Shown here in pieces: positions 34,485-60,024 of a stretch of 64,000 nt of DNA. Source of the DNA: an uncultured bacterium (GTDB lineage: Bacteria; Cyanobacteriota; Vampirovibrionia; Gastranaerophilales; Gastranaerophilaceae); NCBI GenBank assembly GCA_949282195.1, contig CASDOW010000006.1:20749-84748 (forward strand). The letters are read 5' to 3'. The translations under genes were made by a program, and so were the position numbers. The notes below the pieces were generated by a model that ran no database searches, was not told the origin of the DNA, and worked only from the letters and a program-made list of their open reading frames with translations. The first letter of the stretch is position 1, and the number at the start of each line of letters is the position of its first letter.

Positions 34485-35099
34485 ATTTCTTTCATAAATT
34501 TCTTCTAAAGGCAATCTGTATGGAATGATTTCAAAATTACTTTTTGGATATCTTTTCTTAAACAATTTTACCTCGTCATCAGACAATTTTGCCTTATAAA
34601 TCAAGAAATTACCTTGTTTTGTAAGGTGGGTTTTAGATAATTCCCAAACATCAATCATTTTTCCGACTGCTCTTGAAACAATCAAATCAACATTTTGATT
34701 TGGCGCTTCTTCAATTCTTGAGTATAAAATTTCAAGATTGTCGAGTTTTAATTTTTCTTTAATTTCTTTTATGAAGTTAATTTTTTTAATGCGAGAGTCA
34801 TTTGCAATTATTTTTTTATCTTTAAAACAAATTGCTAAAATTACGCTTGGAAAACCGCCTCCGCAGCCGACGTCGAGAATTTTTTTATGGTTTTTAAATT
34901 TATCCCATTTGTAAATAGCTAAAGAGTCAAAAACATGTTTTTCAAAAAGTACCTGAATATCGTTTTGGCTCATTAAATTTGTATGAGAATTATATTGTTT
35001 AAAAATTTCTTCCCATTGGTTTAATTTATCGATTGTTTTATTGTCAAGTTCTAAATCAAGTTCTTTTAATAATATTTCTTTTTCACGATTTGCTATCAT
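34467..35099 (-). CDS. rsmG: 16S rRNA (guanine-N7)-methyltransferase RsmG
   Basis: A 210-residue class I methyltransferase that modifies G527 of 16S rRNA. The SAM-binding loop ILDVGCGGGFPSVILAI and downstream VDLIVSRAVGKM motif are typical, as is the N-terminal helix with LMSQNDIQVLFEKHVFDSLAI. It overlaps the upstream TPR-protein gene by 17 bases and the converging engB gene by 18. Full length. Confidence 0.93.
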   Translation of the reverse strand: MIANREKEILLKELDLELDNKTIDKLNQWEEIFKQYNSHTNLMSQNDIQVLFEKHVFDSLAIYKWDKFKNHKKILDVGCGGGFPSVILAICFKDKKIIANDSRIKKINFIKEIKEKLKLDNLEILYSRIEEAPNQNVDLIVSRAVGKMIDVWELSKTHLTKQGNFLIYKAKLSDDEVKLFKKRYPKSNFEIIPYRLPLEEIYERNLIILN

Positions 35100-37404
35100 A
35101 TTTTTCCATAATTAAATCAAAAGTCATTTTATCAAGACGCATTTTGATATCTTCAATTCTTGAGTTAATTCTTGCCACATTCTCGCTTTTGGGGTTTGCC
35201 TTAAGTGCTGTTTTGGCATTTAAGAAATTGGTCAGCGCTTTTTTATCGTCTTCTTTGTCGTAGTAATATTCGCCTGCTTCAAAATATATTAGCGCAATTT
35301 TGAAGTTATCATTTAATTTTGTTGCCGAATCAAGCGCCTGTTTATAATAACCTATTGCAGAGTGCTCATCTATTCTTGAGTATAATTTAGCCAGTTCTTT
35401 TTGAGAGAAATACATATTGTTGAGGTCGTTATTTTCGCTGTCATATTGCAGGGCAAGTTTCAAAAATTCTGCCGCTTCGCGGTACTTTGATTCTTCAATA
35501 TATATTAAAGCTAAATTTGTAAGCGAAATGCTATAATATTTATTTTCGCTTTTTTCAGAGCTTGTGGTGTAATTTTTTTGATAATATTTTATGGCGTTAT
35601 CCCAATCTTGGTTTTCATCATAAATTAATCCCAATTTAAAATAGGCTCTTGAAACTATTGATTTATTTTTGCCTAATACTAATTTTAAGGCGTTATTGTA
35701 TGATCTTATTGCGTTATCTATTTTTGAATCGGCTTCTTCTATTTCTCCGTATTCAATAAAAGCATTAGCCCGATAACTTGTAGAATTGTTTTCATTTGTT
35801 GCAATTTTCATAAATTGAGTTTTGGCAAGCTCTGTTTTAAATAGTCTTACGTTTGTCATTGCAATTTTAAATTGCAGTTCGCATTTTCTTGAATCCCTTG
35901 TTTCAATAGCGTATTCAAGGGCGTCTGAGTAATATTTTTGTGCAATATTAAAATCGTTTAAGGCTTCATAATTTTTAGCTATCAAAGAATAAATTTCAAT
36001 TTTAAATTCATTATCGTGGTCTGTTTCTTCTGCTCTTAAAAGCTCATTTATCGCCTCTTTATATTGATAGTTTTTAGTGTAATCACGAGAAGAATTAATT
36101 AAGTTTATTATAAAATTATGATCTTGTTCTTTTTTTAATTCTTCTGTTCTTTTTTGAATGTTTGTAGTTTTAGAGAAGATGTTATTTTCTTTTGATAAAA
36201 GATTTCTTCTTTCTTTTATTTTGTTGAGTTTTTCGCTTAGTTTTAATTTTTGTTTTTCTTTTTCATTTACCCAAGAATTTTGCGAAATGCCCAGATATGA
36301 AAAAGGTTTAGACTCTGAATTAATTTGAGGTACAAGCATTTTAAAAGAGTCTATTTCTTTTCTTATAGATTCTCTTGAGAGCCTTAGAAGTCTGTCTTTA
36401 GGGCTTTTGGTTAATTCATTTTCATATATTGCAATCAGATTTTTATAGCTTGTTATTTTTTCTTGAATTGAAAATGTTTTAACGATGTATTGTTTAAAAT
36501 AGTCTTTAACATACATTTCATCTCTGAAATGACTTACAAGAAAATTTTTAGAAAGATAATCGATATAAGAAGTGTTTCCAAGTCTGTATTCTTTGAGAAA
36601 ATCTATACTCACAGGGTGAGATAAAGTAGCTAATATTTTAAATAATCCTTGATAAGCTAAAGGCGTTAATGAAACAAATTTTGATACCATGAATTCTTCA
36701 AAATCAATATTTTGGCTTTGATTTTTTCTTTCAAATTCCAATATTAAATCTTTTATGGAAAAACCTGTTGTGGCACAATATTTTATCCCCATTTTAAGAT
36801 AAAGTTCAAGTCCGTCAGTAATATTATAGTATTTTTCTTTTAATTCTTCGTCTAAGACATCCCCTAAAACGGTGAGCTTAGACTTAAATTCCTCTTTGCT
36901 AATCGGATTTATTTCAAGAGTTTTTACTTTAATCGGTTTAAAGCGAAACAGGTTTTTGTTGTTGTTTCTTGCAACAATAATTATTTTAACATTTTCATAG
37001 CTTGCAAGATGAGAAAGAAAATCAATTATCTCAACATTTTCATTAACTTTTTCAAAATTCTCAACTGCAATAATGCAATTGGAATTAATTGTTCTAAAAT
37101 AATGGCTTACTTTTTCTTTAAAATTATCAGTCATGAATTTTTTAAGAGAGATTTTTTGCGCTAAAGAAAAATCTCTTAATGCATCATAAAAATTTAATAA
37201 AAAATCGTCTATAACTGTATTTTCGAAGCAAAAATGCTGAAATATTAAGTAATCTTTAGAAAGTTCTTTGGCTAATTTCTCAATTGTTTCGCTTTTTGCT
37301 GAGCCTTTTGGACCGCTCATGTAGAGTAGGTCAAAAGATGATGTGGCAAAATTTATTATTTCATTTATAATAGAATTATTAAATTGAAAAAAGCCTTGAG
37401 TCAT
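35083..37404 (-). CDS. STAND-like NTPase with C-terminal TPR array
   Basis: A 773-residue protein. Residues 1-230 form a P-loop NTPase-like domain with SGPKGSAKSET as Walker A (Ala in place of the Gly before Lys) and CIIAVENFEKV as a Walker B-like strand. A helical winged-helix-like region follows (230-330), then a Lys/Arg-rich coiled coil (about 390-440). A TPR superhelix spans roughly 440-745, with repeated ALEYA, AIRSYNNAL, AIKYYQKNY, AAEFLKLAL and AIGYYKQAL signatures. The layout matches signal-sensing STAND proteins such as MalT, without a recognised DNA-binding end. The start is predicted leaderless. Function unknown. Confidence 0.75.
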   Translation of the reverse strand: MTQGFFQFNNSIINEIINFATSSFDLLYMSGPKGSAKSETIEKLAKELSKDYLIFQHFCFENTVIDDFLLNFYDALRDFSLAQKISLKKFMTDNFKEKVSHYFRTINSNCIIAVENFEKVNENVEIIDFLSHLASYENVKIIIVARNNNKNLFRFKPIKVKTLEINPISKEEFKSKLTVLGDVLDEELKEKYYNITDGLELYLKMGIKYCATTGFSIKDLILEFERKNQSQNIDFEEFMVSKFVSLTPLAYQGLFKILATLSHPVSIDFLKEYRLGNTSYIDYLSKNFLVSHFRDEMYVKDYFKQYIVKTFSIQEKITSYKNLIAIYENELTKSPKDRLLRLSRESIRKEIDSFKMLVPQINSESKPFSYLGISQNSWVNEKEKQKLKLSEKLNKIKERRNLLSKENNIFSKTTNIQKRTEELKKEQDHNFIINLINSSRDYTKNYQYKEAINELLRAEETDHDNEFKIEIYSLIAKNYEALNDFNIAQKYYSDALEYAIETRDSRKCELQFKIAMTNVRLFKTELAKTQFMKIATNENNSTSYRANAFIEYGEIEEADSKIDNAIRSYNNALKLVLGKNKSIVSRAYFKLGLIYDENQDWDNAIKYYQKNYTTSSEKSENKYYSISLTNLALIYIEESKYREAAEFLKLALQYDSENNDLNNMYFSQKELAKLYSRIDEHSAIGYYKQALDSATKLNDNFKIALIYFEAGEYYYDKEDDKKALTNFLNAKTALKANPKSENVARINSRIEDIKMRLDKMTFDLIMEKYDSKS

Positions 37405-37589: not shown

Positions 37590-37595
37590 TATAAT
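37590..37595 (+). promoter_or_regulatory. -10 element of the membrane-protein/GH13 locus
   Basis: A perfect TATAAT at 37590-37595, with a predicted transcript start near 37602 and TTTGGAG (37607-37613) five bases before ATG 37619. No good -35 is seen at the proper distance. Confidence 0.5.
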
Positions 37596-37618: not shown

Positions 37619-38650
37619 ATGCAACAAGTCCAAAGTCCTAGTGTTGACAGTCTTCCAAGAATAGGTTATTACGTATCAAAAGAAGAACAAAAGCAGAAAT
37701 TCATAAGAAATGAGTCCCATATACATAAACAAGGGCCTTTATCAGGAGTAAAAGCAGGCGCACACAAACTTACAAATGATTTTTTAACTTATTTCCCAAA
37801 AGGGTTTGCAGGGTCCAAAAATAGCGATTTTTATGAATATTTATCTTTAGGCATGGTTCCTTATGTGGTAGGTAGCAGCATGCTAATCGCTTTATATGGT
37901 GCTGCAAGAAATGCATTTAATTCAACCGATGCATGTGCTGCAGGCATGGGTTACAGGAAAATGGCGGCCGGTGTAATCGCTTATGCGGTTGGTAAATGGG
38001 CTTCAACTAAATTATCAAGAACACTTGTAAATGCTTCAACAGGTGTTGATTTAGATTTATTGTATATTAAAAAGATTAATGAGCTTCCTGAACCCGGACA
38101 AGAAAAGGGGCTTGTCAGAATACAATACCCCGGAGTTTATGATTCAGCGGAATTCTTTAGAAAAGATTTGCTTGCAAAAGATGCTGAATTAAACTATGGA
38201 AATGTGTTTGCGCTAGATGATAAAAAGGCTAAAAAGGCTGGGTTTAAAGAAAAATTAAATAACCCCGGTCAAATGGTAAATGATAAAACAAGAAAATTGA
38301 AAATAAGAGCCACTGCACTGGAAAATGTTGCAAAATACGTTGTTGCGGCAACAGGTGTTGCGTTTGGCGCTCAAAAGTCATTTGAGGTAATGAAATTACC
38401 TAAATTAAATAGTTTAAGTAATGCAGTTTCTTTTGTAAGCGGAATTGCAAAAACCGTTGTAGAAGCCGGAAAAGAATTATGGCATGGAACAGACAGAAAC
38501 GTAATTACAAGAAATTACGGAAAAGTCTTAATAGGAGCAAGCGTAGTAACCACCTTGCTGGCTTGGTTAATTCCTACAATCGGATTTAAATCAAATCCAA
38601 ACACAATGAAATCCAAAGTTGATACAAACAAAGAATATGAGGTAAACTAA
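37619..38650 (+). CDS. Multi-pass membrane protein, first gene of the GH13 locus
   Basis: A 343-residue protein with no recognised family. Hydrophobic, Ala/Gly-rich segments lie near residues 76-96, 114-127, 240-258 and 303-323. The stretches between them are basic and polar. No signal peptide. ATG 37619 has a TTTGGAG site; an in-frame TTG at 37595 sits on the -10 element and is rejected. The stop overlaps the next start (TAATG), so translation is coupled. It is followed by another membrane protein and two GH13 enzymes on the same strand, which suggests a membrane-associated carbohydrate function, by context only. Confidence 0.68.
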   Translation: MQQVQSPSVDSLPRIGYYVSKEEQKQKFIRNESHIHKQGPLSGVKAGAHKLTNDFLTYFPKGFAGSKNSDFYEYLSLGMVPYVVGSSMLIALYGAARNAFNSTDACAAGMGYRKMAAGVIAYAVGKWASTKLSRTLVNASTGVDLDLLYIKKINELPEPGQEKGLVRIQYPGVYDSAEFFRKDLLAKDAELNYGNVFALDDKKAKKAGFKEKLNNPGQMVNDKTRKLKIRATALENVAKYVVAATGVAFGAQKSFEVMKLPKLNSLSNAVSFVSGIAKTVVEAGKELWHGTDRNVITRNYGKVLIGASVVTTLLAWLIPTIGFKSNPNTMKSKVDTNKEYEVN

Positions 38651-41136
38651 TGACATATATAAGCCCTATTCTAAGCAGTACTTTAAATAAGAAAAATAAT
38701 ACAAATAAGGCGAGCGAAAATCATTATAATAAGATTTATGAAGAATTAACCCGTCATGCTAACGATGTAAAACCTAACGCACCAAAGGCAAGGTTAATCA
38801 AGGGTGGTCCTGTTCATGCCGTTCAAAACACAATTAAAGATACTAAAAATTTCTTTAAAGCTGTTAAAGACGGAAAATTGAGCGATAACAACCTTGGAAG
38901 AATTAATGATCTTGGCATGAAATTTGGTGCATTACTTATTGCTTCATTTTTAGCAAGTAAGGCAAAAACAAAAACAGAAGCAGTTATGCAGTTTATTGGC
39001 GGTGCAACATTCTTTGCTTCTATGAGTTTGTGGCCAAAATTATTCATTAATTTACCTGCAAGAATTGTACACGGTTTTGATATAGGTCAAAGATATGTTA
39101 GCGCACAAGGTGATGAAAAAGATTTCTTCTTGGATAATCAATTTGTACCTTGGGATGCTCAACCAAAAGAAGAATTAAGAAAAATAGGCAAAAGAACAGG
39201 CATTGACTATGATAGTCCAAACGGAGAAGAAAAAATCAAAGAAAAAATGCGCAAAACTGCTCTTCAAAACAGAACCCTTGGAATGGCAACAGCAGGTTTT
39301 GCAACTCCTTTAATGACGGCAATGGTGGGTAATGCTGTTGAGCCGAAGGTTAGAGATATAATTATTGAAAGAGTTTATAAAAAAGCAAAAGATATAATTA
39401 CTCCTAAAAAATTCTACGAACAAGATGGCGGTGGCAGCATCAGAGAAATTGGCAAAAGCGGCTTAGAAGATTATTTAAGCGGCGCTAAAGCTGATGTTAG
39501 AAATGTTGACGGAATAGAAAATTTATTTAAAGAATACTCAGATAAAAATCTTGATAAAAATTTCTACGAAAAATTATGCAATATGCTGCAAGTAAATACT
39601 CCGGTAGATTTTGTTAAGGAAAGAAACGGAGAACTTGCAGAAAGAACTTATCAAATGTTTAAAGACTTGGATGATTATGCTCCAATTGAAAGCTTCCGCG
39701 CAGATAATTTGGCTGATGTAATAAGGAGTATTCAAGAACAAACTGCGGTAGTTGATGAACAAAGTTTAAAAGACGCCCTTAAAAAGTTGAATATAAATGT
39801 AGACATTGCTGATTATATTGATTCTGCAAATAAAGCGGTAAGTTCAAAAACAGTAACGGTTGATGTCGACGGCATTGTAAATGATTTTGCAAATAGTGCA
39901 GATAAAACCATAGGCGGATTAAAGAAAATATTAAAAACCCATGGTTTAGATGGCGTACAAATCGGTACCGTTGAAAAAGGTATTCGCATGGACAATGCAC
40001 CTTTCTTTGAAGTAATTAAAAAATATAATGAATCTGTATTACCTGAGATTAGGGGCAGATTTAAATCATATATGGATTTATTTAATTCCGTAATGGGTTC
40101 AAAAACTGAATCTAAAACAACAAAAGAATATCTTATGGAATTAGATAAGTTAATGAAGAGATTTAACTTTAGTTATGATGATTTAAAAGAAATGACAAAT
40201 TCCGGTGTTGAATCAAGCGAAGCAAAATTGCGTTTGGTGAAATACTTTGAGAAATTTGCAGATAAAACAAAAAGTTTAACTCTTGAAGAATATAAAAAAG
40301 AACTTGGCAATTTCTTATCAATTCCATTGGATAAAGATTTATTAGACACAATGGAACATTTGGTTGATCCTAAAAATATTCAAAGCATTACAGAAAATGC
40401 AAAATCAACAGGAGATAATGCATTCTTTAAATTGTTGAATACTGCATTTATAGGTGAAAACGGTAATAGAAAATCAGGCTTAATAGGTGCATTGGATAGG
40501 TTCAAACAAGAAAAAATCTTATCTCTTGATGCGATTAAGGCAAAAGCATTGATTTGCAGTAATTTTGAAAGAAGAGTTGAAAGCCTTGACTTTAAAAGAG
40601 CTCTTGAAGAGACAGGATTGATATTAAGCGAAGCTAAAAAAGCAGGAATGACTCCTGAAGAAATCGCTCTTAATAGCAGTATACCTTATGAAGATTGGAT
40701 TAAATACGCGAGATCTGTTATTTATGACGGATCTATTGCAAAGGATGCTTGCAATGCTAATATAGGCGATAAAACTCTTTATGAAACTTTGAAAGGTATT
40801 ATCTATAATCCTAAAGCTTTTGAAGTAGAAGATGTAATTCTAAATGGTGCAAAAGAAGGCAGAGAATATACAAACTTTGATATTAAAGGTGTTGTGGAAA
40901 GGTTGAAAAATCTAAATCAATCAGTTAAAGAAGGCAAAAATGATTATTCAAGATCCTTGAGTTTCTCAAAAGCCGTTTCAGAGCGTGCTACTGCAATCTT
41001 CAATAATAAGAGTTGGAAAAGAATATTTGTTCCAATGACAGTAGCGCTTATTGCGGTAACTTTATTGGCTCAACCTTTCTTTGGAAATATCAAAAAAGAA
41101 TTCCCCGAAGAAAATAAAAACGGAGGTACTAAATAA
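38650..41136 (+). CDS. Large protein with membrane segments and long helical domain, second gene of the GH13 locus
   Basis: An 828-residue protein of no recognised family. Hydrophobic segments lie near residues 95-130 (MKFGALLIASFLAS, FIGGATFFASMSLW) and 213-232 (LGMATAGFATPLMTAMVG). After a long, charged, mainly helical region (about 260-790) comes a single C-terminal membrane anchor (VPMTVALIAVTLLAQPFF). The central region has no Cys-rich or nucleotide-binding motif that I can see. It is coupled by TAATG overlaps to the genes on both sides. Probably partner of the preceding membrane protein. Confidence 0.68.
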   Translation: MTYISPILSSTLNKKNNTNKASENHYNKIYEELTRHANDVKPNAPKARLIKGGPVHAVQNTIKDTKNFFKAVKDGKLSDNNLGRINDLGMKFGALLIASFLASKAKTKTEAVMQFIGGATFFASMSLWPKLFINLPARIVHGFDIGQRYVSAQGDEKDFFLDNQFVPWDAQPKEELRKIGKRTGIDYDSPNGEEKIKEKMRKTALQNRTLGMATAGFATPLMTAMVGNAVEPKVRDIIIERVYKKAKDIITPKKFYEQDGGGSIREIGKSGLEDYLSGAKADVRNVDGIENLFKEYSDKNLDKNFYEKLCNMLQVNTPVDFVKERNGELAERTYQMFKDLDDYAPIESFRADNLADVIRSIQEQTAVVDEQSLKDALKKLNINVDIADYIDSANKAVSSKTVTVDVDGIVNDFANSADKTIGGLKKILKTHGLDGVQIGTVEKGIRMDNAPFFEVIKKYNESVLPEIRGRFKSYMDLFNSVMGSKTESKTTKEYLMELDKLMKRFNFSYDDLKEMTNSGVESSEAKLRLVKYFEKFADKTKSLTLEEYKKELGNFLSIPLDKDLLDTMEHLVDPKNIQSITENAKSTGDNAFFKLLNTAFIGENGNRKSGLIGALDRFKQEKILSLDAIKAKALICSNFERRVESLDFKRALEETGLILSEAKKAGMTPEEIALNSSIPYEDWIKYARSVIYDGSIAKDACNANIGDKTLYETLKGIIYNPKAFEVEDVILNGAKEGREYTNFDIKGVVERLKNLNQSVKEGKNDYSRSLSFSKAVSERATAIFNNKSWKRIFVPMTVALIAVTLLAQPFFGNIKKEFPEENKNGGTK

Positions 41137-43034
41137 TGTCAATAAATAACGTAAGATTAGCACAAGTACCGATACAAACATATAATACAGCAGCCCCTGA
41201 GGTTCAAACAAAAGAACCTGCAGAAATAAAAGGCGATTATCAATTGACAATGATAAGTCCTCTGTTGGCTCAAATGTTATTAGCTCAAAGTAAAAAAATT
41301 ACCCCTGCAAGTGTTTCTAATGTTCAAGGGGTAACAGAAGCTCAAAAAAGAGTTTCCGGTTATAAAAACGAGCTAAGAGATATGTTAACTCATAATAAAG
41401 CTAATATTATTGCCGTAATTTTAAGAACAATGAATGCTCAAGATAAAGACGGCAATGAATTAATCCAAGGTGATGAAATTTCAGGTAATTTTATTAACGC
41501 TGTAGATAGATTAGATGAAATTAAAGATTTAGGCTTTAATACTCAACACGTATTACCTATTCACCCTCCCGGAAAAACTCATGCTATGGGTACAGCAGGT
41601 TCATTATATGCGCCAAAAGACTTTTTGACGCTTGACCCTGAATTGGTTGATGAAAATCCGCCTGAAGAAGTTAAAAAAAGGGTGGCAGAATTATATGAAC
41701 AAAAAACAGGCAAAAAGCTTGAAAAAATGGATAAAAATGATCCTGAAGTAGCTTTTGCTCAATGTAAATATTATATTGATGAATGTCACAAACGCGGTAT
41801 AAAAGTAATGCTTGATTTACCGTCTTGTGCAAGTGTAGATTTTGCAAGATTACATCCTGAATTAATGGCAATCGGCCCTGACGGAAAAGAAAAAGTTCCC
41901 CAAGGCTGGCAAGATATCAGAATGTTGAAGTCATTTGTTGACGAACAAAATCGTATTTTGAACAAGCCTCTTGTTGATATGCTTAAAAAATACGTAGATA
42001 TGTGTGTTGATTTAGGCTTCGACGGCATAAGAGCCGACGTTGGCAGAGCAAGACCTGTTGAATTTTGGAATGTAATTATTAATTATTCAAGAGCTAAAGA
42101 CCCTCAATTTGCTTGGTTGGCTGAAACATATACCCATGAAGATGCTTCACCTCAGCTAAATATGCCATATGACAGACCACAAGAGCTATTGGAAGTTGGT
42201 TTTGACAGTTACTACGGTCAATATCATAATTACAGCGATTGGTTAACTGCTGATGTTTTATTTGACTATGTTAAAGAAAACATCGATATGAATAATAAAA
42301 TAGGTGAAAAATGCGGACCTAAATCTTTAATCGGTTCTTTTGCAACTCACGACGACCAATCACCAATGTTATACGGCGGTGCTCCTTGGGTAATGTTTAC
42401 AACAATACTTCAAAGTATGCTGCCTCAAGTTAACCCATATATAGTTGACGGCATTCAAACAGGCGATTTCTACTTGTATCCTTATGAACATGCGCTTGTA
42501 AGAGATTCTGAAACAGATAATCACGAATGTACCGTTCACACAGGAAGATTAGATATATTTAATAAATCAAGAAAACCCGGCGGTAATTCTCCTGAAATTG
42601 CACAAGTTGTTAAAACCGCATTTGCTCTAAGGGATAACAGATATAATGAATTAAATCCAAATTCTAATGTTAAATTATCAATGACAAATGCGCAAGATGT
42701 AATTACAAAAGGTTCGTTCATAAAATTGCCTACAAATAATCCTGAAATTATTGCATTTGCAAGACATAAAGACGGTAAGACATTGTTGTTTGTAGGAAAC
42801 AGAAATATCAACTTCAAAGTTGGCGGCAAGATTGAAATTCCGGGTTTAAAACCTGAACAAAAATTCGCTAACTTAATGCCAAGCTACGGTGCTGAATCTA
42901 AATTCCAAAATGATAAGCAAGGTTCATTAGTTGTGGAAATGGGTGCAGGCAGAGCTTGTGTATTTGAAATAGATGATAAGGATATTGAAAAATTATCTAA
43001 ACCCGAAAATGTACTACAACAAAAATATCTGTAA
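41136..43034 (+). CDS. GH13 alpha-amylase-family enzyme, cytoplasmic
   Basis: A 632-residue protein with a GH13 TIM barrel starting around residue 85. Catalytic residues are visible: nucleophile Asp301 in FDGIRADVGRA, acid/base Glu330 in WLAETYTHED, and His405-Asp406 in SFATHDDQS. Region I is unusual (VMLDLPSCAS instead of DxxxNH). A C-terminal beta domain follows (about 545-620). There is no signal peptide, so an intracellular alpha-glucan such as glycogen, or a phosphorylated sugar, is the likely substrate; hydrolase or transferase cannot be decided. It is coupled by TAATG to the preceding membrane-protein gene. Confidence 0.82.
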   Translation: MSINNVRLAQVPIQTYNTAAPEVQTKEPAEIKGDYQLTMISPLLAQMLLAQSKKITPASVSNVQGVTEAQKRVSGYKNELRDMLTHNKANIIAVILRTMNAQDKDGNELIQGDEISGNFINAVDRLDEIKDLGFNTQHVLPIHPPGKTHAMGTAGSLYAPKDFLTLDPELVDENPPEEVKKRVAELYEQKTGKKLEKMDKNDPEVAFAQCKYYIDECHKRGIKVMLDLPSCASVDFARLHPELMAIGPDGKEKVPQGWQDIRMLKSFVDEQNRILNKPLVDMLKKYVDMCVDLGFDGIRADVGRARPVEFWNVIINYSRAKDPQFAWLAETYTHEDASPQLNMPYDRPQELLEVGFDSYYGQYHNYSDWLTADVLFDYVKENIDMNNKIGEKCGPKSLIGSFATHDDQSPMLYGGAPWVMFTTILQSMLPQVNPYIVDGIQTGDFYLYPYEHALVRDSETDNHECTVHTGRLDIFNKSRKPGGNSPEIAQVVKTAFALRDNRYNELNPNSNVKLSMTNAQDVITKGSFIKLPTNNPEIIAFARHKDGKTLLFVGNRNINFKVGGKIEIPGLKPEQKFANLMPSYGAESKFQNDKQGSLVVEMGAGRACVFEIDDKDIEKLSKPENVLQQKYL

Positions 43035-43084
43035 AAAGTTAAATAATCTCATTAAAAGGGAAATTAAACAGTAAAGGATGAGTT

Positions 43085-46000
43085 ATGGATTTATCAATTA
43101 ATAGATTTCAAAAGACAAGACAAAAGCAAATTTCATTTGATGGGGTGAAAAGCACATATTCTAAGACTGCAAGCCCTGTGTTTAATTTTACAATTCCTCC
43201 TTATGATTCTTCAAAAGAAGAACCGTTTTTGGAACTTGTGCTTTTAAATAAGAAAGATAAATCAAGCGGTTATGACGCTTCAAGCGTAGCTGGTTTCTTT
43301 TCGCTTCCTTTTGATGAAGAAGGTCAAGTTATTATAAGGAAGGAATTTTTTGATAAAAAATATATAAATGCCTTTGCATATAGATATAGATTTGATCAAA
43401 AAGACGGCTCAGATTCCAGATATGCTAATGATGAATTTAAAGCAATTGAAATTGATGAATTGGGCAAATTAAACCTTATTGACCTTGGAAGAAATTATGG
43501 TATTTCACCAAAAGCAGGTACAATGCGCCATAGTTTTGTAGATTCTGATGCTGTGATTATTGACGGCAAAGTTCGTGAAAATATAATGAGTGAATTTAGA
43601 AGAAATCACTTTAATAAATTAGGCGGAAGCTTAAAAGGTATTGATGAACTGATAAAAAGTGGCGAATTAGCGCCATACAGATATATTATCACAACTCCTG
43701 ATATCGGTGTTGACCCGACTTCTCCTCATAAATATTGGTCTAACAACTTATATCAATGTAATAATTTACAAGATTTCAAAGATTTAAACTTTGATTTGTA
43801 TAAATTAGGTAAAGCGTATGTTGCAGACGGTGCTTTTACATCTCAAGGTATACAATCACCTTTGGTAGCTCATGTTTTAAAATGGGGTAAAGAATCACCA
43901 TTTTATAACATGTTAAAAATTCAAGACAATCTTACTCCTGGTGTTTTACCTGCAATGCCTCAAGAAGGCAAAGAATATCCTTTTCCTACATTGGGTATTA
44001 GAGTTGTTAACCCTAAAAAACCGGGGTATAACAAAAACAAACCGACATATATCCAATTCTATGATAGTCGCATGGCAAGCGATAAACAAATAAATGACGC
44101 TTCAAAATTAATTTTAAGTTATGATAAAGCTCCAAAAAAAGATTTTGAAGTAATCGGCTATCCTGATTCTGTTCATCCTTTCTATTTTGAAGTAGATCCA
44201 GATGATGACAGATTAAAAATCTTTACTGATAAAAACGCTGTTTTAATTGAAGATTTTAAAGATGTAAAAAGATTTTTATCGTTTGATAATTTCAAAATAT
44301 CAGACAGACAACACGCTTCAGGTGCAACATTCTGGGACGGTAATGTTGACCTTATTAAGATGAATTTATCTAATCCGAGAAATACAAAAGAAAATATTGA
44401 AGGTATGATGAATGCCAGAAAATATATTCTTGGCGTTGCTTCTTATTGGACTGAAACAATTCAAAGTGATTTAATTTTAAGAACTGCTTTATTAAGTAAT
44501 GAAGAAAAAGCAAAAGTTGCAAAAAATAACGACATTACCCCTGAACAGTTTGAAATAATTAAAAATAATCCCGATAGCTTGCCTTCAGCGGTTTTAAGCA
44601 GTAATAAAACAGTAAGTGATTATATTAAGGAATTTCCTTTACAATCGCTTGAAGTTAGTCCTGAATTGACAGCAGTATTCTCTGAACCTCAATTTAAAGA
44701 AGAATTCTTAAACGAAGAAACATTTGCTTGGTTGAACGATGTTGTTGAAAATACAATCACTGAAGCAATACCTGAAGAATATAAACAAGATGAAAAATAT
44801 AAAGCTTTTGCAATAAAAACTTATGCAAATGATGTAATTAGAGATGTTTTAATAAATTCGCTAAATCCTGTTGCAGTTAGAAATAATTTAGAAAAAGTTA
44901 CGCTAAATTCTCTTTTAACTACAAGGCCTGTGAGCGTTAAGGATGAAAGAAATCAAGTCGTTCGCAAAATGCAGCGATTATTAAGTACAGATTCAATTTA
45001 TTCAATCAGGAAAAAAGTTGCAGGTGAATTATCTAAAATTTCATATGAAGATTTTAGACAAGCAGAAGCTATTGTAACAGAAGGTAAGGCAGGTTTGAAC
45101 TGGCGTTTTGATGCAGCAAAAGATATTGCAGACTTAGACGCAGTTAGAAACGGTTCATCTACACTTCATGAAGTTTGGGATGAAGACGGTTCACTTCCGA
45201 GCGTTGCAGATTTCTGGGCTGATTTTATAAAAAATGTTAAAAAATATAACCCTGCTGCTTTAACTATTCTTGAAATAACTGATTTTGCAAGTTTTTATGA
45301 ATGGAACAATGTTGAGTCAATGAGAAATTTTGCTCCTGACATAACAAATGATTTCTTGGATAAAACAGCTAAATCTTTTGACAAGATTGCAGAAAAAGCA
45401 AAACAAATTGACAAAGAAGGTTTTAAAGCTGCGGCTGAAATTTTAAGAACGGGCGTTATAACCGAAAAAACCAGAAAAGCTGTTTTGGATATTGCAGACA
45501 GATACTATGATAAAGACGAAACCAGAGCCGATTATGTTAAAGACTCAGGTAAACCTGATGTTAATAGAACAAAAGTTTTAAATTTATATAGCAATATAGT
45601 TTCAAAAGCGGGATTTTCTGCTGATTATTATCCTGCTGATTATGAAAATCACGTTGCTTATGTAAAAGAACAGCAATTCTTGGAACAAGTAGGCGCTACA
45701 ACAGGTTCTAACTATGACAAATATTTCAATAGATTGTCTATGTTTGCGGGTGTAAATCCTGAAAATTATGAAGGCGTTTCAGATAAAGCCGGTAATGTTT
45801 CATTTTTAAGAGAACAAACCAAACATTTAATGAAATATGGTCAACCTCATACAGTAATGTATTCACACGTATTCTACGAAAACCATGATAAACCTCGTTT
45901 ATTACATGTTTTACCTTTGGATACAAAGTTATTCTTAACTAAAAATTTAGCGGGTGCTTCTGATGAATACAAAAAATTAGCTACTGAAATTACAGGCAGA

Positions 46001-46945
46001 AAGGATTATTATGAAATCAATCCTAAGGCTGTTGCAGTGGCTCAGGTTATGAAAAGAGAAATCGAGAAAGAATACGGTGATAAACCTGAAATAAAAAATA
46101 AGCTTTTAGATGTATTAAAAGATTTAGCAAACGGTGTTGTTCAAAAAGGCGATGAGCCTGATTACAGAACAGCTGAAGCATTTGGTGTAGCTCCTTATGA
46201 AGATACTATACAAATGTTGTTTAATAGAGCCGGAATAAATGACAAAGACGCCATGCTTGACTTCCACAAAGGAATGTTGGGTGAATCAATGGATATGCAA
46301 CAATCATTATGGCAAGTTATCAATGCGCTTGTTGGTACTCCGACATTATATAACGGTGCTGAATTTGCTCAAACAGGCTATGAAACACCTTCTAAGAACG
46401 TATATGTTGGAAACAGGGGTGAAATTCTTCATGGTCTAAAAAACGACGAAAGATATAGCACATACTATAATAAAATGCAAGCAATTTCATCTTTATATAA
46501 AAACCCTCAATTAAGAGCTTTAAGAGAAGGTTATCCTGTGTCTTTAGTGGTTGATAACAAAGACGGTTTAGACATGTGGCCTTTAATGAAATACGATGAA
46601 AGAGGTTCAAAAGTAATTAGTGTTATTACAGGAAACCGCTTGCCAAAAGGAAAAGAATCAAAAGAAGGAGCAGACAATAATGAAGTTCATCTTGTTGATT
46701 CAATTAAAATTAAAGACGAAAAACAAATGTCAGCACTTCCTGAAGGTACAACCCTAAGAAGAAAAATATATAATCCTCAAACTGCTTCATATGTTGATGA
46801 TAACGTTGTTTATACGGTTGAAAACGGTGAAATTCATTCTCCAAAAGGCAAGATAAAAGTAGATGATACTGTTATGACTTTCTATGTGCCTAATTTGGAA
46901 TTGGAAAAACATAAGTTTGCTTCAGTATGTAACGGAGCTCGCTAA
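43085..46945 (+). CDS. Giant GH13-like enzyme with very large intra-barrel insertion
   Basis: A 1286-residue protein. The N terminus has a short ISFDG motif (residues 16-20), then a beta-rich region. GH13 signatures are spread widely: a region I-like segment YVADGAFTSQG with Asp248; nucleophile Asp676 in NWRFDAAKD; acid/base Glu730 in LTILEITDF; His934-Asp935 in FYENHDKPR; and a late VGTPTLYNGAEFAQTG. About 430 residues separate region I from region II, where ordinary GH13 enzymes have 80-120. A C-terminal beta domain ends the protein. No signal peptide. An AAAGGATGAG site precedes ATG, and a terminator follows directly. Confidence 0.75.
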   Translation: MDLSINRFQKTRQKQISFDGVKSTYSKTASPVFNFTIPPYDSSKEEPFLELVLLNKKDKSSGYDASSVAGFFSLPFDEEGQVIIRKEFFDKKYINAFAYRYRFDQKDGSDSRYANDEFKAIEIDELGKLNLIDLGRNYGISPKAGTMRHSFVDSDAVIIDGKVRENIMSEFRRNHFNKLGGSLKGIDELIKSGELAPYRYIITTPDIGVDPTSPHKYWSNNLYQCNNLQDFKDLNFDLYKLGKAYVADGAFTSQGIQSPLVAHVLKWGKESPFYNMLKIQDNLTPGVLPAMPQEGKEYPFPTLGIRVVNPKKPGYNKNKPTYIQFYDSRMASDKQINDASKLILSYDKAPKKDFEVIGYPDSVHPFYFEVDPDDDRLKIFTDKNAVLIEDFKDVKRFLSFDNFKISDRQHASGATFWDGNVDLIKMNLSNPRNTKENIEGMMNARKYILGVASYWTETIQSDLILRTALLSNEEKAKVAKNNDITPEQFEIIKNNPDSLPSAVLSSNKTVSDYIKEFPLQSLEVSPELTAVFSEPQFKEEFLNEETFAWLNDVVENTITEAIPEEYKQDEKYKAFAIKTYANDVIRDVLINSLNPVAVRNNLEKVTLNSLLTTRPVSVKDERNQVVRKMQRLLSTDSIYSIRKKVAGELSKISYEDFRQAEAIVTEGKAGLNWRFDAAKDIADLDAVRNGSSTLHEVWDEDGSLPSVADFWADFIKNVKKYNPAALTILEITDFASFYEWNNVESMRNFAPDITNDFLDKTAKSFDKIAEKAKQIDKEGFKAAAEILRTGVITEKTRKAVLDIADRYYDKDETRADYVKDSGKPDVNRTKVLNLYSNIVSKAGFSADYYPADYENHVAYVKEQQFLEQVGATTGSNYDKYFNRLSMFAGVNPENYEGVSDKAGNVSFLREQTKHLMKYGQPHTVMYSHVFYENHDKPRLLHVLPLDTKLFLTKNLAGASDEYKKLATEITGRKDYYEINPKAVAVAQVMKREIEKEYGDKPEIKNKLLDVLKDLANGVVQKGDEPDYRTAEAFGVAPYEDTIQMLFNRAGINDKDAMLDFHKGMLGESMDMQQSLWQVINALVGTPTLYNGAEFAQTGYETPSKNVYVGNRGEILHGLKNDERYSTYYNKMQAISSLYKNPQLRALREGYPVSLVVDNKDGLDMWPLMKYDERGSKVISVITGNRLPKGKESKEGADNNEVHLVDSIKIKDEKQMSALPEGTTLRRKIYNPQTASYVDDNVVYTVENGEIHSPKGKIKVDDTVMTFYVPNLELEKHKFASVCNGAR

Positions 46946-46978
46946 AATTTAACCTCCCATTTGGGAGGTTAAATTTTT
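46944..46978. terminator. Bidirectional terminator between the GH13 locus and the Hcp-like gene
   Basis: AAAATTTAACCTCCC and GGGAGGTTAAATTTTT form a strong stem with a four- to five-base loop. It overlaps the stop codons of both converging genes. Confidence 0.9.
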
Positions 46979-48443
46979 ATATAATATTTACCTTGAAATC
47001 TTCTCTTAAGGCTTCGATAACATGCGGATTTATTAAAAACGAAGAACACTGTGCAAGATATATATCAAGCTCTTTATTTAATAGCGACAAAATGGTGTCT
47101 ATGCTTGAAAGGTTACATTGAGAGAAGAATATTGTCATTTTAATGTTTTTCTCTTTTAGATGTTTTATTGATTTTATTAAAATATTTTCTTCTAGTGGGC
47201 AGTTAAATGTTATTATTTTTTTATTTTTGTATTCTCCAATGTAATTTTCATCAAGCTTGCCTGCTATTAAGATAATTTCCTCATCTTCAAGATTTTCAAT
47301 TGTTTTTTCTATTTCTTTAAAATCATAATTGATTTTAAGGTATTTTTTTTCTTGATTTTTATTGTAACCTTCGATATTCAAGCATGAATTGATTAAAGGT
47401 TTATAGTCATTATTTTCTATATCAAAAACTTTTTCAAAAGAAATCAGTTTATTTGAAAATATTTCACCACGATATAGAGTGTCGATTTTTTGGATAAAAT
47501 TTTTGGTGATTAAAATTGACCCCGGAAAAACGGAAAATTCATATTCTGTGTTGTCTTTTCCAAGATGTCCTTTTAAAAATTTATTATTTTTAAAATACGG
47601 ATAAAAATGCGCCAAAATCAACGCACCATTTGTATACACGTTTATTGGTATTTTGGGGTCATATTCTTCAAGGGTTTTTAATACATATTCAAGTTCATCA
47701 AGATCATCTCCCGAAACAAGAATTGAGTGTCCTTTTTGGGGAGTGGTGAGGATAGAAGCATTTTCTTTATTTCCATATTTTTCCTTGTATATTAAATCAA
47801 GCTTCTCTTTCAATAGAGCGGAAATATTAGAAAATTCTTTTATTCTTCTTATGATTTTTTCATCCCTAATAGAATAACCGTTAGTCAGAGCAAAAAATCT
47901 TATAACTTCATAATCGAATTCATTAAAGTTCTTATCAAGTTTTTTAATTTTTACAATATTAATTGCACATAATTTTGCTTGTAGTGTTATAAGCTCAAAA
48001 AGACGTTGTTTTTTTCTGTCGCAGTCTTTTTGCTTATTCATAAGAGTGTTTTGTGAGTAGTTTATTAATTCTGAAATTTTTGTATTTTCATCTATTTTCA
48101 AATCACTGCTAATGATTTCGCAAGGAAACTTATGTGTAGAGCAGTAATTTATGTATTTGTTTTTTGTTTCTTCTTTGATGTTTTGCAATTTAATGATTAA
48201 GTTTAAGTATTTATTTTGATTGAAGCTGGTGTTTATTAAAAATGTTGATAGTGAATCTATTACAACATTCATTATATTTGCATTCAAAAAACCAAATTCT
48301 TTCAACTTAACAAGATAATATGATATATCTCTTAATTGCGCTAAAAGTATTTCATATAATGAGTTTACGCTTGGATGAACCGAGCATACGCCAATGGATT
48401 GGCAAGAATTTTTTTCTGCTATATTTTTAAAATAATCAAACAT
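46977..48443 (-). CDS. Hybrid-cluster-protein (Hcp) homologue lacking most cluster ligands
   Basis: A 488-residue protein that aligns by eye with Hcp (NO/hydroxylamine reductase) over its length. The N terminus reads MFDYFKN...SCQSIGVC, where Hcp has MFCYQC...GCT.RGVC: Cys14 and Cys20 remain and the first two Cys are lost. The central ILVSGDDLDELEYVL and NVYTNGALILAHFYPYF match Hcp's SGHDLxDLxxLL and YTHGEMLPAHxYP, with the ligand His and Glu replaced. TKNF replaces TTNC. A QCNLSSIDT segment and the LINPHVIEALREDFKVN end match Hcp's GQCND and C terminus. It is shorter than Hcp (~540). Catalysis by a hybrid cluster seems unlikely; role unknown. Confidence 0.72.
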   Translation of the reverse strand: MFDYFKNIAEKNSCQSIGVCSVHPSVNSLYEILLAQLRDISYYLVKLKEFGFLNANIMNVVIDSLSTFLINTSFNQNKYLNLIIKLQNIKEETKNKYINYCSTHKFPCEIISSDLKIDENTKISELINYSQNTLMNKQKDCDRKKQRLFELITLQAKLCAINIVKIKKLDKNFNEFDYEVIRFFALTNGYSIRDEKIIRRIKEFSNISALLKEKLDLIYKEKYGNKENASILTTPQKGHSILVSGDDLDELEYVLKTLEEYDPKIPINVYTNGALILAHFYPYFKNNKFLKGHLGKDNTEYEFSVFPGSILITKNFIQKIDTLYRGEIFSNKLISFEKVFDIENNDYKPLINSCLNIEGYNKNQEKKYLKINYDFKEIEKTIENLEDEEIILIAGKLDENYIGEYKNKKIITFNCPLEENILIKSIKHLKEKNIKMTIFFSQCNLSSIDTILSLLNKELDIYLAQCSSFLINPHVIEALREDFKVNII

Positions 48444-59397: not shown

Positions 59398-60024
59398 ATG
59401 AAAATAAACAGCGTACAACAACAAAATTTCAAAGGAAGCATTACGAATAAGGTAGGCAAGTTTATTGTAGACCACCCTGTTGAGGTTGCAGGACTTGCAG
59501 GTTGCTCCGTTATAGCACAAAAAATTGTTATGTCAGGGTCTGAAGCGGTTATTGGACCGGTAATGGATATTGGAATAGGAAAAGCAATAACCAAAATAAC
59601 AAAAGAAAAAGACGGTAGAACAAATCAAAGTTCAAAAGTTCAAGCAATTAGGACGTTTGCTCAGTCTGTTGGCGGCACTATTGTTGGTGTTGGTGTTCGC
59701 GCAGTTTGTATAACAGGGGCAGTTGCCGCGTGCATGAAAATCGGTTCAAAAGCAGGCTCTAAGATAGGCGAAGTTCTAAATCCTGTTACAGAGAAATTAA
59801 CTAAAGAAAATGATTTATATAAATATACAGATAAGATGAGTGCTTGGGGTAAAGCAATCGGCGGCGCTTTAGCTACTTTGGTTATGCTTGTTACAAATTT
59901 TATAATTGATGCACCATTTATTAATTTTATAAATAAAAAGGTTTCTGAAAAAGTTTTAAAAAAGCCGACCGTTGAAAATACGCAACAGCAAAATGATACA
60001 CAAAATGCAAAGGAGGCTAAATAA
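59398..60024 (+). CDS. Ala/Gly-rich multi-pass membrane protein with N-terminal FKG motif
   Basis: A 208-residue protein. The N terminus MKINSVQQQNFKGSITNK has a Phe-x-Gly motif after a polar stretch, like ISFDG in the giant GH13 enzyme. Hydrophobic Ala/Gly/Val-rich segments lie near residues 22-38, 83-110 and 146-172. The C-terminal tail is polar (ENTQQQNDTQNAKEAK). The stop overlaps the next start as TAATG, so translation is coupled. It resembles the pair at 37619/38650 in organisation. No family recognised. Confidence 0.65.
   Translation: MKINSVQQQNFKGSITNKVGKFIVDHPVEVAGLAGCSVIAQKIVMSGSEAVIGPVMDIGIGKAITKITKEKDGRTNQSSKVQAIRTFAQSVGGTIVGVGVRAVCITGAVAACMKIGSKAGSKIGEVLNPVTEKLTKENDLYKYTDKMSAWGKAIGGALATLVMLVTNFIIDAPFINFINKKVSEKVLKKPTVENTQQQNDTQNAKEAK

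Follow-up and report, generated by a model that had tools for sequence, protein, structure and literature searches.

Here, we describe four genes, g1 to g4, from an uncultured Gastranaerophilales bacterium that constitute a conserved, co-inherited unit, encoding two homologous, predicted four-helix membrane proteins together with two enzymes predicted to be remote members of GH13 with their catalytic residues intact. The genes lie in a stretch of 64,000 nucleotides, analysed here as a whole (the window), and the genome containing it amounts to 2.1 Mb in 73 contigs. We hold it evenly balanced whether g1 and g2 tether g3, and possibly also g4, to the cytoplasmic side of the membrane for alpha-glucan remodelling. 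Within this reading, a strong case can be made for tethering of g3 to the membrane protein g2, as fused g2-g3 frames would link the two physically, and a moderate one for the proposed alpha-glucan remodelling by the set.

All four genes are open frames on the + strand of the window. The first, g1 (37619..38650), encodes a predicted four-helix membrane protein of no known family, with 343 aa when read from the ATG at 37619 (in the ORF list of the window it starts with a TTG at 37595 and has 351 aa). It is followed by g2 (38650..41136), encoding a membrane protein of 828 aa, by g3 (41136..43034), encoding a GH13-type enzyme of 632 aa with no signal peptide, and, after 50 bases, by g4 (43085..46945), whose GH13-type product of 1286 aa is cyclomaltodextrinase/neopullulanase-like. 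The g1/g2 junction reads TAATG and, judging from the coordinates, g2 and g3 likewise share one base pair at 41136. An earlier note on this DNA, made from the sequence alone, had described a same-strand quartet with three of its genes joined by overlaps; the four + strand frames of the ORF list and the two TAATG junctions bear this out. Its terminator after the last gene corresponds to a 15-bp hairpin 3′ of g4 (46944..46977, +), which adjoins the convergent gene and folds at -20.3 kcal/mol (z -6.8 versus 200 shuffles). This hairpin is absent from the output of a generic scan and was seen by folding of the segment. An Rfam search returned no RNA element within or near the operon, and a promoter scan found 43 candidates versus 40.7 expected from shuffles, that is, no excess.

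The gene convergent with g4 (46977-48443, - strand) encodes a divergent member of the prismane/hydroxylamine-reductase-like family, scoring 152 bits versus an equivalog cut-off of 367. On the other side of the set, a divergently oriented gene for a STAND-type ATPase with TPR repeats (35083-37404, - strand) adjoins rsmG. These two genes are the commonest other neighbours, each present in 49 of 112 related loci; being less well kept than the set, they were rejected as members of the unit.

Co-occurrence of the four genes in relatives, the check put forward by the earlier note, was tested in 58 related genomes. All four genes are present in 47 of them and none in seven (G035, G041, G043, G046, G051, G052 and G057), while the four partial cases comprise a contig that ends in g2 (G031), a g1 cut by a contig end (G042), a genome that is 66% complete (G050) and one with no g4 (G053). 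Counted singly, g1 occurs in 49 genomes, g2 in 50, g3 in 52 (50 without G031 and G043, where the match is a paralogue or a weak GH13 match) and g4 in 48. The full set was found in 28 of 28 genomes of the same genus and in 34 of 35 of the same family. Nearly all relatives with these genes have g1-g2-g3 in this order on a single strand; the order in G053 is g3-g1-g2. In a second, named set (80 loci fetched from 310 related stretches, 79 of them with a g3 frame), g1 and g2 precede g3 on its strand in 73 of the 73 loci where the upstream sequence exceeds 5.5 kb, which is more than chance would give, and g4 stands downstream of g3 in 46 of the 66 loci where the downstream sequence exceeds 6 kb. Among the named records, those with the nearest g3 are for the most part metagenome assemblies filed as Candidatus Gastranaerophilales or as unnamed bacteria, and many come from animal guts.

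The position of g4 is more variable. It comes after g3 within the genus and in some families; in G030 the distance downstream is 3.8 kb, in G049 (L107) g4 is divergent and adjoins g1, and it is found elsewhere in the genome in 10 of the 58 relatives (G028, G032, G033, G034, G036, G037, G039, G042, G044 and G047). Because of these ten genomes and its absence from G053, the argument for placing g4 in one complex with the other proteins is weak. At longer range, 146 genomes of the class were compared with the g1 profile, which matches 65: 52 belong to the same family and 13 are among the 94 others, all 13 outside the order. In a phylum sample of 194 genomes, the g2 profile, which is less sensitive at long range, matches 85, each of them from the same family, and the other carrier families are all missing from its matches. 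No same-family genome appears among the misses listed for either profile (20 of 81 for g1, 20 of 109 for g2).

Hydrophobicity averaged on a 56-row alignment places four segments in g1 (residues 74-92, 115-133, 233-251 and 303-321), and averaging over aligned relatives places four in g2 (residues 85-103, 115-133, 209-227 and 793-811); by a stricter cut applied to the single window sequences, two segments pass in g1 and one in g2. Residues 40-239 of g2 are homologous to g1 (hhalign probability 97.2, E 2.8e-11), and the four segments of each protein sit at matching places. The two membrane proteins of the earlier note stand, each with four averaged hydrophobic segments, and are homologues rather than an unrelated pair. 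They differ in the spacing of segments 3 and 4, which is 51 residues in g1 versus 565 in g2, where a mostly helical, poorly conserved insert (residues 228-792; 39331..41025, +) lies between them. Mean pLDDT is 83.5 for the AlphaFold2 model of g1 and 83.9 for the predicted model of g2, and both models contain a helical hairpin with a short pair of strands after it.

That neither membrane protein belongs to a known family, as the earlier note had it, agrees with several searches. None of the four proteins, g1 to g4, scores above cut-off with any Pfam or NCBIfam model. Foldseek matched neither the g1 nor the g2 model to a solved structure at E<=0.001, and VIA, run on g1 only, reached a best Z of 5.9, inside the tool's range for common helical arrangements. 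DUF445 (PF04286) was rejected for g2, at 10 bits versus a cut-off of 33.8. Compared with PDB sequences, the g1 profile had no matches and that of g2 only weak ones (best E 0.0025), which are mostly to designed helical proteins and are therefore read as composition. Three protein searches gave 601, 181 and 118 clusters; among the relatives considered (the best 120 of 601, the best 120 of 181 and the 118), those with a name are called 'hypothetical protein', and the source labels of the matches listed are Gastranaerophilales, Melainabacteria, Cyanobacteria or 'bacterium'. PF23890 on P0163 and PF12637 on P0290 each mark a single relative and no other among those listed.

The GH13 character of g3 and g4 claimed earlier was recovered at the level of profiles. 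That of g3 matches the GH13 structures 4gkl (E 9.2e-26), 1gju (4.3e-22) and GlgE 3zss (9.3e-17), whereas the Pfam GH13 model PF00128 reaches 12.4 bits versus a library cut-off of 22. In 24 of 24 aligned g3 sequences, the predicted nucleophile D301 (42036..42038, +; region II), the arginine before it (R299), the predicted acid/base E330 (42123..42125, +; region III) and the predicted third catalytic carboxylate D406 (42351..42353, +; region IV, with H405) are invariant. Region I of g3 is D-x-P-x-C; an N-H is found there in two aligned amylases and is absent from two aligned transferases, which hints at transfer activity. Beside GlgE, the best PDB relatives of g3 are the maltodextrin glycosyltransferase 1gju and the alpha-amylases 4gkl and 3dhu. 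The alignment to these three is partial; g3 begins with a stretch of low complexity towards its N-terminus and, unlike them, it has a membrane partner whose gene overlaps its own or is fused to it.

GlgE, the maltose-1-phosphate maltosyltransferase of subfamily GH13_3, resembles g3 in several respects: the two align over regions I-III, g3 has a GlgE-like 'KPVxFW' stretch after the nucleophile, and both are without Asn-His in region I. The phosphate-binding residues of GlgE given in PMC4526890 are N352, K355, Y357 and N395. In 24 g3 sequences, the position of N352 holds K (18), E (5) or R (1), that of K355 holds Q (19), K (2) or A, E and S (1 each), that of Y357 is always W and that of N395 always V. 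As these four residues are not kept, the identification of g3 as GlgE was rejected.

The g4 profile matches 1ea9 (E 6.6e-26) and 2z1k (5.7e-25), and PF00128 is not listed for this protein. Matches to PDB entries come in pieces, the start of the barrel being followed by later catalytic and C-terminal parts, and about 430 residues separate region I (D248) from region II (D676). Among 21 sequences, invariant residues include R and D of region II (R674-D676; 45104..45112, +), where D676 is the predicted nucleophile, the predicted acid/base E730 (45272..45274, +), and N and D of region IV (N933-H934-D935; 45881..45889, +), where H is kept in 20 of 21. F18 and G20 of an N-terminal F-x-G motif (residues 18-20; 43136..43144, +) are likewise invariant in all 21. 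The cyclomaltodextrinase/neopullulanase entries 1ea9 and 2z1k, presumably of subfamily GH13_20, represent enzymes that act on cyclodextrin or pullulan as dimers, with the N-domain at the active site. In contrast to their 583 and 475 aa, g4 has 1286, and the long spacing of regions I and II and the F-x-G motif also set it apart. Both g3 and g4 are candidates for new GH13 subfamilies.

More distant relatives bear on how g2 and g3 are connected. We fetched 14 loci from the 13 g1-positive genomes outside the order, and 13 of the 14 have g1-g2-g3 in this order, L207 being cut at g1. In L202, L205 and L211, which come from three genomes of three genera in one family, g2 and g3 form a single open frame of 986-1082 aa, with the hydrophobic segments first and the GH13 part last. 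One of these genomes (G081) has two g1-g2-g3 copies, fused in L202 and unfused in L203. The membrane-tethered complex of the earlier note, which included both enzymes, therefore gains for g3 from fusions in three genomes and loses for g4, unlinked from g1-g3 in 10 of 58. In 8 of the 14 distant loci, g4 is divergent beside g1. All eight have a gene for an MFS symporter beyond g4 and on its strand, directly next to it in seven and separated from it by one 276-aa frame in L201. Each of the eight symporters matches the relative in the genome of the window, which has this transporter at a different place (41% identity). Within the order, the same transporter lies less than 1 kb from g4 in L102 and L105, only two of the nine fetched loci in which g4 is apart from g1-g3, and the flanks fetched for the remaining loci of the order showed none.

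Considering these data, we propose an arrangement in which g1 and g2 would pair in the membrane via their shared four-helix part, and g2 would hold g3 at the inner face of the cell membrane, with the enzyme ends of the assembly facing the cytoplasm. There, g3 might serve as an alpha-glucan transferase or hydrolase and g4 might process short or cyclic alpha-glucans. Sugar imported by the symporter could be handed to these enzymes near the membrane, to be built into, or drawn from, the glycogen pool. An alpha-glucan role had already been suggested in the earlier note; it gains from the symporter and starch-synthase-like neighbours in other families, which support an alpha-glucan or alpha-glucoside role, while the substrate itself is a prediction.

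The rival that fares best replaces storage alpha-glucan with another substrate, such as sucrose, trehalose, or a glucoside that is lipid-linked or belongs to the cell envelope and is made at the membrane. We consider it rather unlikely, given that the nearest solved relatives of the two enzymes are an amylase, a maltodextrin glycosyltransferase, GlgE, a cyclomaltodextrinase and a neopullulanase, and that genes for glycosyltransferases with a starch-synthase domain lie near the set in three far loci (L198, L199 and L211). Nevertheless, the symporters of two tested far loci, like the relative in the genome of the window, have the sucrose/proton model TIGR01301 as their nearest match, at scores that fall short of its cut-off, and g3 has weak, partial matches to trehalose-enzyme models, all far below cut-off. 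The same rival would account for ordinary glycogen genes standing apart from the set: glgA, a glgX-like and a branching-enzyme-like gene are present in the same genome at a different place. A GlgA-type synthase (PF08323, E<=1e-50) is encoded by 51 of the 58 genomes, including six of the seven without the set, so glycogen synthesis as such appears independent of it.

Several synthase-like genes were observed besides. G040 and G045 (99% complete) have the four-gene set and lack a GlgA-type match at E<=1e-50; their sole candidate is a synthase-like frame of 763 aa, a long form that may replace GlgA in these two. L217 4941-7481 encodes a starch-synthase-like glycosyltransferase (846 aa) whose hydrophobic N-terminal helix spans residues 44-62, in addition to an ordinary GlgA at L220 5342-6799. 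The membrane-anchored GT5-like enzyme of the genome shares 25% identity with the far-locus enzyme in a partial alignment. Close relatives of the former (E<=1e-25) occur in 22 of 58 genomes and in none of the seven set-free ones, a count that leaves out longer weak matches, which are of mixed families. With close relatives in only these 22 genomes and a link that is contextual, this enzyme was rejected as a fifth member of the unit.

The side of the membrane on which the enzymes reside bears on a further alternative, namely that g1 and g2 help to export both GH13 enzymes or hold them on the outer side of the cytoplasmic membrane, where they would trim maltodextrins for the symporter. By charge counts, the more net-positive loops of g1 are those that follow helices 1 and 3, which by the positive-inside rule would place the termini outside and argues weakly against our proposed topology, and the symporter beside g4 in other lineages would fit trimming before uptake. 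However, neither enzyme has a hydrophobic segment, whether TM- or signal-like, in line with the lack of signal peptides stated in the earlier note; this, together with the fusions, argues for enzyme ends in the cytoplasm. Moreover, an outer role already fits a relative of g3 in the same genome (L112 5460-6995; 511 aa, 32% identity) that by inspection starts with a signal peptide, so exported and non-exported forms look distinct; it is likely an exported form of the GH13 group of g3. On these predicted features, we consider the cytoplasmic side clearly favoured and the outer-face alternative improbable. That the GH13 proteins have no enzymatic function and instead partner a transporter or scaffold, in the manner of the GH13-like heavy chains that amino-acid transporters of animals have, would agree with their membrane partners, a transporter gene nearby in other lineages and low similarity to known GH13 enzymes, but is very improbable, because three catalytic carboxylates invariant in 24 of 24 g3 and 21 of 21 g4 sequences would be unexpected under selection on a scaffold alone.

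The alpha-glucan enzymes of bacteria are as a rule regarded as soluble. The set, present in nearly all members of the family, links at least one GH13 enzyme to membrane families without known relatives, and, if tethering holds true, bacteria can site storage-polysaccharide chemistry at the membrane, here in a cyanobacteria-related, non-photosynthetic lineage. The novelty lies in the dedicated four-helix tether; bacterial alpha-glucan enzymes and GH13 are of known kinds. The set also offers testable roles for two families of 'hypothetical proteins'. Searches limited to open-licence papers found no description of such a gene set, which is weak evidence that none exists. Passages of PMC4040986 and PMC5877343 mention use or storage of starch or glycogen for Gastranaerophilales, and passages of PMC4451040 predict starch and glycogen degradation for Vampirovibrio, in each case without such a gene set. 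Plastid descendants of cyanobacteria do something comparable: the MFP1/PTST2 system is reported to site starch granule initiation at thylakoids (PMC10801857), and the likeness to this plant chloroplast system is one of working only, a membrane-associated protein fixing the site of alpha-glucan synthesis. A broader reading, which we put forward as doubtful though conceivable, would make the set a dedicated membrane platform for alpha-glucan chemistry, with a paired four-helix scaffold unknown elsewhere holding two GH13 enzymes of new subfamilies and coupling sugar uptake directly to glycan building, as a bacterial equivalent of the way in which chloroplast starch granules are initiated in a membrane-tethered manner.

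Finally, the N-terminal motif of g4 has parallels in unrelated proteins of the class. F-x-[GA] near the N-terminus is also seen in the products of 59398-60024 of the window, L220 1720-2322 and L113 13616-13969, with further sites in L201 9880-10710 and L206 5188-6054. Over 464 protein clusters, the frequency of F-x-G/A is 2.3% for each 20-residue bin up to residue 40 versus about 1.0% on average in the next eight bins. With an enrichment this weak, a general targeting signal is no more than a lead; the motif may represent a lineage-wide docking or sorting peptide.
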